A stretch of 55,381 nucleotides of DNA, from assembly GCA_963575655.1 (NCBI GenBank), contig CAUYTY010000044.1, forward strand, positions 1-55,381, given 5' to 3'. The stretch is from Gammaproteobacteria bacterium (GTDB taxonomy: Bacteria > Pseudomonadota > Gammaproteobacteria > CAIRSR01). The notes below the pieces were generated by a model, which ran no database searches, was not told where the DNA came from, and saw nothing but the letters and a program-made list of their open reading frames with translations. The translations under genes were made by a program, and so were the position numbers. The number at the start of each line of letters is the position of its first letter. Position 1 is the stretch's first letter. Positions 21,774-29,392 of this stretch are shown piece by piece.

Positions 21774-22622
21774 TCATGCAGTGGCCAGAACATCCTTCAT
21801 ATCATCGATGATTTCCATTAATTCTTCGCCATTCAAATCAAAGACTCGCAGAGTACCCTCTTCAATACGTGACCACTCAGCACTATCATTTTCCCAATGG
21901 TAAAGATGACAGAGATGATTAGCAAGGGATAAGAGTGCGACCTGCCTAGCCAATAAACTATCGGCAGCATTAGTGAGAAGATCTTCGTCGTGGTGATTAA
22001 ATATGGCCGTGCGAATCTCTTCTGGGAGACACCAGGAACGGGCCACAAAGTACCCTACTAACGCATGATTTGTATTGAAATGTTGTTCTTCTAAATTAAT
22101 CAAAAGCCCTTGCGAGTCGGTATGAAATTTAATAAAATCTTCTGCATAATTTGAGAATTTCTGCATCATTAACGGAATGCCGCAATCATGAAATAATCCC
22201 ATCATATGCGCTTGATCTGCTGCCATTATTTTAAATCGACGCGCCAATGCCGAGCAGATCAAGGCGGTATCGGCAGCCATATCCCAGAAACGACTGAAAC
22301 TTATTCGAGACGCACTCGACATCGCCGTTCGTAGAGAAAGCCCCGTAATTAGGTTGGCACTGTTGTTCATTCCTAACAACATAACCGACTGAGAGATCGA
22401 TGTAACTTTTCTACCCAAACCGAAAGCCGGGGAATTCGCGGCACGTAACATGGCCACCGCAAGCCCTACGTCTTTTTCTACCGCACGGGCAATCTTGCGT
22501 AAATCAGGATCAAATCGTTGTTGTTCTTCCATAACGAGCAGCAATATCTTCGGCTGTGGTGGAATGTCAATCCCTTTTAGTAGTTGTGCGGTGGTGTTTT
22601 CATCAAAAGTTTGGATTGTCAT
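21774..22622 (-). CDS. HDOD domain signalling protein
   Basis: 282 residues with an HDOD domain (~15-215): IPPQPKILLLVMEEQ, LRAANSPAFGLGRKVTSISQ, LMMQKFSNYAED and LFHDCGIPLMM, with retained HD-like residues. HDOD proteins usually lack phosphohydrolase activity and act in signalling with c-di-GMP or two-component systems. It lies 100 bp upstream of clpB but is probably a separate unit. Its ATG is the last of a series of repeated ATGACAAT start-like units created by the 14-bp tandem repeat just upstream. No normal ribosome-binding site is visible. Confidence 0.85.
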   Translation of the reverse strand: MTIQTFDENTTAQLLKGIDIPPQPKILLLVMEEQQRFDPDLRKIARAVEKDVGLAVAMLRAANSPAFGLGRKVTSISQSVMLLGMNNSANLITGLSLRTAMSSASRISFSRFWDMAADTALICSALARRFKIMAADQAHMMGLFHDCGIPLMMQKFSNYAEDFIKFHTDSQGLLINLEEQHFNTNHALVGYFVARSWCLPEEIRTAIFNHHDEDLLTNAADSLLARQVALLSLANHLCHLYHWENDSAEWSRIEEGTLRVFDLNGEELMEIIDDMKDVLATA

Positions 22623-22624
22623 AA

Positions 22625-22708
22625 CGGTATTGTCATGGCGGTATTGTCATGACGGTATTGTCATGACGGTATTGTCATGACGGTATTGTCATGACGGTAT
22701 TGTCATGA
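22625..22708. repeat. Tandem repeat, six 14-bp units of CGGTATTGTCATGA
   Basis: Six consecutive copies; the first differs by one base (GG for GA at the end). The array abuts the start codon of the HDOD gene. Read on the reverse strand each unit gives TCATGACAATACCG, repeating the sequence ATGACAAT that begins the gene. The units are 14 bp, so successive ATGs fall in different frames. Confidence 0.95.
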
Positions 22709-22957
22709 CGGTAGCTCTTATTGTTACAGGGTGATAAATGAATAACAGCGTATAAATAACTAGATATTACCCTATGCCTAAAGAAAAATACTGACCAATT
22801 CTATCATCAACCCCCAGATATATCAATAGATACAATATAACCTGGATAATTACTGCAGAAGTGTTTATTAGTATATGGGGAGTTGATCTTGCTTTATCAA
22901 GTTACACAACGTGAAGTGATCAGCAAAATTAAGAGAACCTATGCCTGATTTATCCAT

Positions 22958-28867: not shown

Positions 28868-29392
28868 CCTTGGATCGGCTGGCCAACGATGATTCTTGTT
28901 TCGACTGCCGCTGGGGCGACACCAAAAAACCGAATGGTACGAAAAGGTGATGCGGGTGGATTCCCCACGACCTCTATAGTCGGATGCGGCCGAAACAAGA
29001 ATTGTCGCCATAACGAATGTGATGTATCCCTTCGCGGATATACCAATGTATTTATGCTTGATGCAGGACATGGGGGGCGCAAAACGGCGCTCGCGCCAGG
29101 TTGTCAAGGAAATTAGGTGCTAAATGAATGACGATACCGTTGTGGATAGCGAACTCGAGACGGTCGCAAATACTTCACTCGCCTAACAAATACATACAGT
29201 TATAAATAGCACACAATACGCAATGAGGGTTTCCGCTAGCCTAACTACGTAGAATCCTATGACATGAGTGAGAACAGGGTGCCTTATACTGGTTCCAGAA
29301 GAAGATTCGTAGATTCTTAGATTCTTAGATTCTTATCGTTATTGGTGAGTTCGTCACAAATTAACCGTGATGATAGTAACGGAGTCCTCGCG
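28868..29392. other. Intergenic region with an inverted repeat and short tandem repeat
   Basis: No credible gene. GATTCTTGTTTCG (28891-28903) recurs inverted at 28991-29003 with one mismatch. An 8-bp tandem repeat AGATTCTT (about four copies, first imperfect) lies at 29303-29334, upstream of cysQ. Confidence 0.45.

Follow-up and report, generated by a model that had tools for sequence, protein, structure and literature searches.

Among closely spaced ORFs, -4 nt (NTGA) has been reported as the commonest spacing and coupling efficiency as highest at spacings of -4 to +3 nt; the same source, in the part of its text that is accessible, describes the mycobacterial interspersed repetitive unit (MIRU), which inserts at start codons and whose own ORF couples at -4 nt (PMC12548453). 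On that partial text, MIRU is the nearest precedent found for the locus considered here. In E. coli, a 15-nt tail taken from the end of the upstream gene and placed behind a long reporter was enough for reinitiation (PMC10666635, accessible part); since the upstream ORFs used were long, that part of the work says little on ORFs of five codons. Removal of the Shine-Dalgarno (SD) sequence lowered reinitiation in 4 of 5 E. coli gene pairs, according to the available sections of PMC6728339, and phase variation and translational coupling are treated as separate classes of frame transition in those of PMC3711429. Short tandem repeats are also described for stbDR of plasmid R388, where StbA binds 9-bp repeats spaced by 2 nt (PMC3098194, in part). 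A limited search of the open-access literature found no description of a ladder of start codons of the kind reported below.

We analysed a window of 55,381 nucleotides, meaning the whole stretch of DNA presented above. Within it, Tandem Repeats Finder reported a repeat of period 14 at 22615-22713 (7.1 copies, 96% matches, score 184), and the last of its copies holds the start codon of an HDOD-domain gene. The array, the gene and the small ORFs between them are as follows.

22615..22712, minus strand: tandem array of seven 14-bp copies, from Tandem Repeats Finder and unit alignment
21774..22622, minus strand: intact HDOD-domain gene, 282 aa, with its ATG at 22622-22620 in the last copy
22689..22706, minus strand: mini-ORF 1, MTIPS, with stop and next start sharing ATGA
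22675..22692, minus strand: mini-ORF 2, MTIPS
22661..22678, minus strand: mini-ORF 3, MTIPS
22647..22664, minus strand: mini-ORF 4, MTIPS
22633..22650, minus strand: mini-ORF 5, MTIPP
22619..22636, minus strand: mini-ORF 6, MTIPL, with its TGA over the HDOD start codon

On the minus strand the units read, in order, ACCGTCATGACAAT five times, then ACCGCCATGACAAT, then ACCGTTATGACAAT. Copies 1-5 are identical and copies 6 and 7 carry one substitution each; these two changes, the only ones in the 98 bases, fall at positions 5 and 6 of the unit. When the array was matched against itself at a lag of 14, the longest run was 61 bases, as against a maximum of 10 in 20 Markov-1 simulations. It was also the strongest of the four arrays scoring 50 or more in 155,381 bases of the genome (the window plus five 20-kb stretches; the runner-up scored 66). 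The 14-bp array is confirmed as genuine and lies far beyond chance. An initial annotation, made from the letters alone, had described a tandem repeat built from the start-codon region of the HDOD gene, each minus-strand unit carrying the first bases of the gene, and a unit length that is no multiple of three. All of this was borne out, since the last copy is the gene start, ATGACAAT is present in all seven units with its last occurrence at the HDOD start (22622), and the period is 14; the coordinates it gave, 22620-22708, are right as to location but stop a few bases short of the array on either side. The near identity of the copies points to slipped-strand copying as the likely origin of the array, as that annotation also held.

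A search of the 4.2-Mb genome with the 14-mer, allowing up to one mismatch, returned one other site, in single copy (the same pattern read backwards, as a control, gave 3 matches). With no second array of the unit in the genome, the array is a single local one, and a dispersed repeat or regulon was rejected on that ground. An exact 25-mer from the array was absent from the viral contigs. Rfam gave nine matches at the array with E values up to 1 (best 4.9e-06), all on the plus strand, below gathering scores and to eukaryotic families (eight microRNAs and one Aspergillus sRNA), which we set aside as by-products of a palindromic repeat. A terminator-like site at 22670-22713 on the plus strand (1 found, shuffle mean 0.2) was discounted because it consists of the repeat itself. 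The window contains a second tandem repeat, AGATTCTT in 4.1 copies at 29303-29335, upstream of a 294-aa ORF whose start may be 29342 or a later ATG.

The 282-aa ORF matches the HDOD profile PF08668 over nearly its full length (profile positions 1-195 of 196, E 1.8e-47). All six ATGs upstream open ORFs of five codons, and at every one of the six junctions the TGA overlaps the ATG of the following copy as ATGA; between 22780 and 22623, no ATG, GTG or TTG gives a frame that runs on into the HDOD gene. Adjacent upstream ATGs do lie in different frames, but none of them joins the HDOD gene, since each meets a stop after five codons. An array whose unit is 3n+2 bases long and contains ATGA closes on itself at any whole copy number: with a stop for each upstream ATG supplied by the copy that follows, gain or loss of whole units cannot switch the frame of the HDOD gene. 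The same behaviour was seen with toy sequences, in which a 14-base unit closed all upstream ATGs whereas a 13-base unit left the last upstream ATG open (units of 15 to 17 bases were not used, because the invented bases added an extra ATG). The plus strand of the array also holds a chain of five ATGAs, whose last ATG opens only nine codons; such a chain is automatic for a unit of this kind, and the geometry alone is therefore no sign of design.

The signals and predicted structures around the ladder, all on the strand of the gene, are these.

22715..22719, minus strand: weak Shine-Dalgarno-like AAGAG, 8 nt before the first ladder ATG, predicted pairing -2.1 kcal/mol
22798..22826, minus strand: promoter-like TTGATA-17-TAGAAT, a consensus match only (1 found, shuffle mean 2.1)
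22688..22709, minus strand: predicted hairpin of copies 1 and 2, GTCATGAC-AATACC-GTCATGAC, with an 8-bp stem
22660-22681, minus strand: predicted hairpin of copies 3 and 4, of the same 8-bp form
22618-22653, minus strand: predicted hairpin of copies 5 and 7, in the minimum-energy fold and absent from the centroid

Predicted pairing with the anti-SD was -2.1 kcal/mol at the first ATG and +0.7 at the other six, the HDOD start included. Since a generic anti-SD was used and the background mean is -2.2 kcal/mol, the pairing of AAGAG is no better than background and the first site is weak too. The HDOD gene is one of 11 among the 36 ORFs of the window whose first start scores above zero, and some of these 11 starts are perhaps misassigned. 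The best-scoring in-frame start within 60 codons of the HDOD gene is an internal ATG (-6.1); the HDOD domain begins at residue 20, so that initiation there would cut into the domain. Reading a single-copy version from the sequence places AAGAG equally far from the HDOD start, which suggests that slippage moved the gene off its own signal. The ancestral start is inferred, as no one-copy orthologue of the HDOD gene was found in its own and three family genomes. Because GTCATGAC is self-complementary, neighbouring copies can pair as 8-bp hairpins. The leader is predicted to fold at -35 kcal/mol against a shuffle mean of -17.3 (z -6.22); the minimum fold energy falls with each copy added from 1 to 13 in the model, and the HDOD ATG is paired throughout that range (probability of being unpaired 0.01-0.07).

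Taken with the lack of predicted SD pairing, the buried ATG suggests that translation of the HDOD gene may rely on stepwise reinitiation, and the reading that we prefer, at slightly less than an even chance, is a ladder of mini-ORFs made by slippage and passed by termination and reinitiation, with graded output, probably young and tolerated. Replication slippage would have multiplied a 14-bp segment spanning the HDOD start codon, leaving six five-codon ORFs in a ladder, the last closing over the real HDOD start. Ribosomes would enter at the first ATG, beside the weak AAGAG, and would reach the HDOD start by repeated termination and reinitiation, opening the hairpins between copies step by step. 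Output of the HDOD gene would then be graded, falling as copies are gained and rising as they are lost, with the frame unswitched; since whole-copy changes never shift the frame, any effect of copy number must be graded. With a reinitiation efficiency of r at each step, the flux left after seven copies would be roughly that at the first start times r to the sixth power. The ladder junctions are without SD, and the partial text of PMC6728339, in which SD removal lowers reinitiation, suggests that an SD-less ladder may be inefficient. The effect of the ladder on HDOD expression is possibly graded and perhaps negligible, and, judging from comparisons across the class of such arrays, the array itself is probably a young and tolerated feature and not a selected device. 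A stronger version, in which slippage gains and losses of mini-ORFs multiply expression by the reinitiation efficiency and so form a heritable, reversible and frame-safe translation rheostat, we regard as improbable. Were it true, arrays of this type would be natural rulers for reinitiation and would offer a route, via slippage, to graded and frame-safe tuning; were the ladder without effect, they would show that bacteria tolerate slippage in a start region when the unit closes on itself.

We scanned genomes, one per species, for ATGA repeated every 14 nt five times, which gave at least 113 loci and, after removal of duplicates, at least 169 arrays. Among the matches listed, the last ATG opened an ORF of at least 100 aa, a threshold that is not proof of a gene, in 15 arrays, with all upstream ATGs closed in 15 of 15; in a sixteenth listed array the long ORF opens at the last but one ATG. 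In the viral contigs the last ATG opened at least 100 aa in 5 of 103 arrays of period 14 (all upstream ATGs closed in 5), 8 of 108 of period 11 (closed in 8), 4 of 37 of period 17 (closed in 3), 5 of 86 of period 10 (closed in 0), 1 of 35 of period 13 (closed in 0) and 4 of 87 of period 16 (closed in 4). Pfam searches with ten hand-chosen array-led proteins matched six, namely a UbiB, a glycerol kinase, a reverse transcriptase, a 5'-3' exonuclease, a transporter permease and an Hsp70-like protein, and left four without a match. Upstream of one reverse-transcriptase gene (L522:8208-9287) we noted six 10-bp units containing ATGA, five of which begin ATGAAT.

Two of these families include relatives that differ in copy number and so provide a natural comparison. 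One glpK locus (L571) has eight ATGs spaced by 14 nt and another (L572), 97% identical to it over residues 1-436, has one; the array was absent from the 150 bases before the conserved motif in 17 other glpK loci among those listed. For ubiB we compared the 6 of 16 loci that fitted the protein motif, leaving out the other ten: L555 has five ATGs, L557 and L558 (86-87% identical) have two spaced by 14 nt, L556 (88% identical) has a degenerate array, and L560 and L561 (75%) have no second copy. The differing copy number among these relatives indicates that such arrays are young and variable, and the intact state of glpK and ubiB despite the array that a ladder is compatible with a kept gene.

The HDOD gene has three other relatives in its genome, 48-61% identical (E 1e-30 or better), and relatives across its own and three other family genomes are 45-61% identical (E 1e-40 or better). 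A scan of a collection of genome contigs with the HDOD protein, from which this or a very near genome may be absent, gave 11 stretches matched by pattern, with no relative confirmed among them. A 16S search in the genome of the HDOD gene gave no match; among 2,281 plasmid records matching ClpB, the six listed are gammaproteobacterial, at 69.2-72.5% identity. On the contig bearing clpB there was no HDOD relative in the three other family genomes, all of them drafts, and in one of these genomes (G001) clpB has no HDOD gene among the ORFs upstream of it; the place of the HDOD gene therefore looks lineage-specific among the four genomes. In a second genome (G003) the clpB match (L019) is interrupted by one in-frame TAG, so that it may be a pseudogene or contain a sequencing error. 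Directly before the start of the closest HDOD paralogue (L004) lie two short, non-repeated ORFs chained by ATGA, which may be coincidence.

The alternative that survives best, which we consider rather unlikely, is that the array is a neutral passenger of slippage, with de novo initiation at the last ATG as before and copy number irrelevant. The comparison with single ATGAs is in its favour: of 120 listed genome arrays preceded by ORF-free sequence, 10 had a last ATG opening at least 100 aa, against 156 of 1,423 single intergenic ATGAs from the same loci. Across seven sets, arrays were nowhere enriched at gene starts (p 0.65 to 1), and in several sets their rate lay below that of single ATGAs. 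The arrays before ubiB and glpK precede intact genes of housekeeping families, and the 11 of 36 ORFs in the window that start without predicted SD pairing indicate that SD-free initiation may be common. On the other side, predicted folding hides the HDOD start, whose pairing is +0.7, so that unaided initiation there looks weak. Selection for ladders at gene starts is unsupported, given this lack of enrichment and the fact that periods of 3n+1 also reach gene starts.

We think it quite doubtful that the array binds protein, its GTCATGAC palindromes every 14 bp serving as operator or partition-type sites. The palindrome occurs 5 times in the window, all within the array, where 0.6 are expected, a count that is not independent of the repeat. 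Arrays of an 11-bp ATGAGC unit over the starts of three genes in viral contigs (L366, L417 and L429) resemble the StbA-bound repeats of R388 as far as these appear in the accessible text, and lend the idea some support. The three genes are alike by eye, and their arrays, which have diverged and end on the start codons, are possibly operators of the StbA kind; L366 gave a weak StbA match (E 0.00026, 21.6 bits against a cut-off of 100), and L429 had partial matches in 11 of 72,556 plasmid records, all Xanthomonas (48% covered, less than 60% identical). They keep a core while the rest of the unit differs, whereas the HDOD array conserves core and spacer equally, a pattern closer to that of recent slippage than to that of a binding site. 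Elsewhere in the genome the unit is absent, one single-mismatch site excepted. HDOD, moreover, is not known as a DNA-binding domain.

Comparably improbable is control by RNA structure, in which hairpins between copies would set translation, for instance by even or odd copy number. The strength of the predicted fold (z -6.22) and the lowering of the minimum energy by every copy speak for it, yet the probability that the ATG is unpaired is 0.01 at even and 0.07 at odd copy numbers, so that accessibility hardly changes; modelled folding gave no useful effect for a switch on copy parity, and such a switch was rejected.

An assembly artefact or wrong copy number is very improbable. The genome is a 261-contig draft, and identical 14-bp copies can collapse or expand during assembly; against this, common sequencing reads are longer than the 98-bp array, copies 6 and 7 are each marked by a substitution of their own, and the flanking sequence is unlike the unit. 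Least probable of all, with next to nothing left in its favour beyond a tandem repeat whose unit is indivisible by three, is the slipped-strand switch of expression by frame that the initial annotation proposed, since ORF analysis and arithmetic exclude it for ATG starts and whole-unit changes, each upstream ATG being closed by the next copy at any whole copy number.

The slippage-made ladder can be set beside the known systems as follows. With stbDR, as described in the accessible part of its source, it shares short tandem repeats before a gene; the period there is 11 and the gene StbA, whereas here they are 14 and HDOD, and the conserved core with varying spacer seen in L366, L417 and L429 is absent from the HDOD array. 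With slipped-strand phase-variation loci it shares a short, near-identical tandem repeat at the 5' end of a gene; there, a change of whole copies switches the frame, which it never does at the HDOD array. The ATGA overlap, found at 6 of 6 junctions, is common to the array and to -4 start-stop coupling (PMC6728339, in part). Coupling of a short upstream ORF to a gene, as at iraD of E. coli in the accessible text of PMC5574718, has its counterpart in the short ORFs found here, although coupling of the iraD type involves one upstream ORF and the array six identical or near-identical tandem mini-ORFs. As in MIRU, an ORF within the unit of the HDOD array overlaps the start of the gene at -4 nt. MIRUs, on the partial text available, are apparently mobile and occur in many mycobacteria, whereas the HDOD array is single, with no second in its genome, and its unit is 14 bp long and carries the gene's own start.
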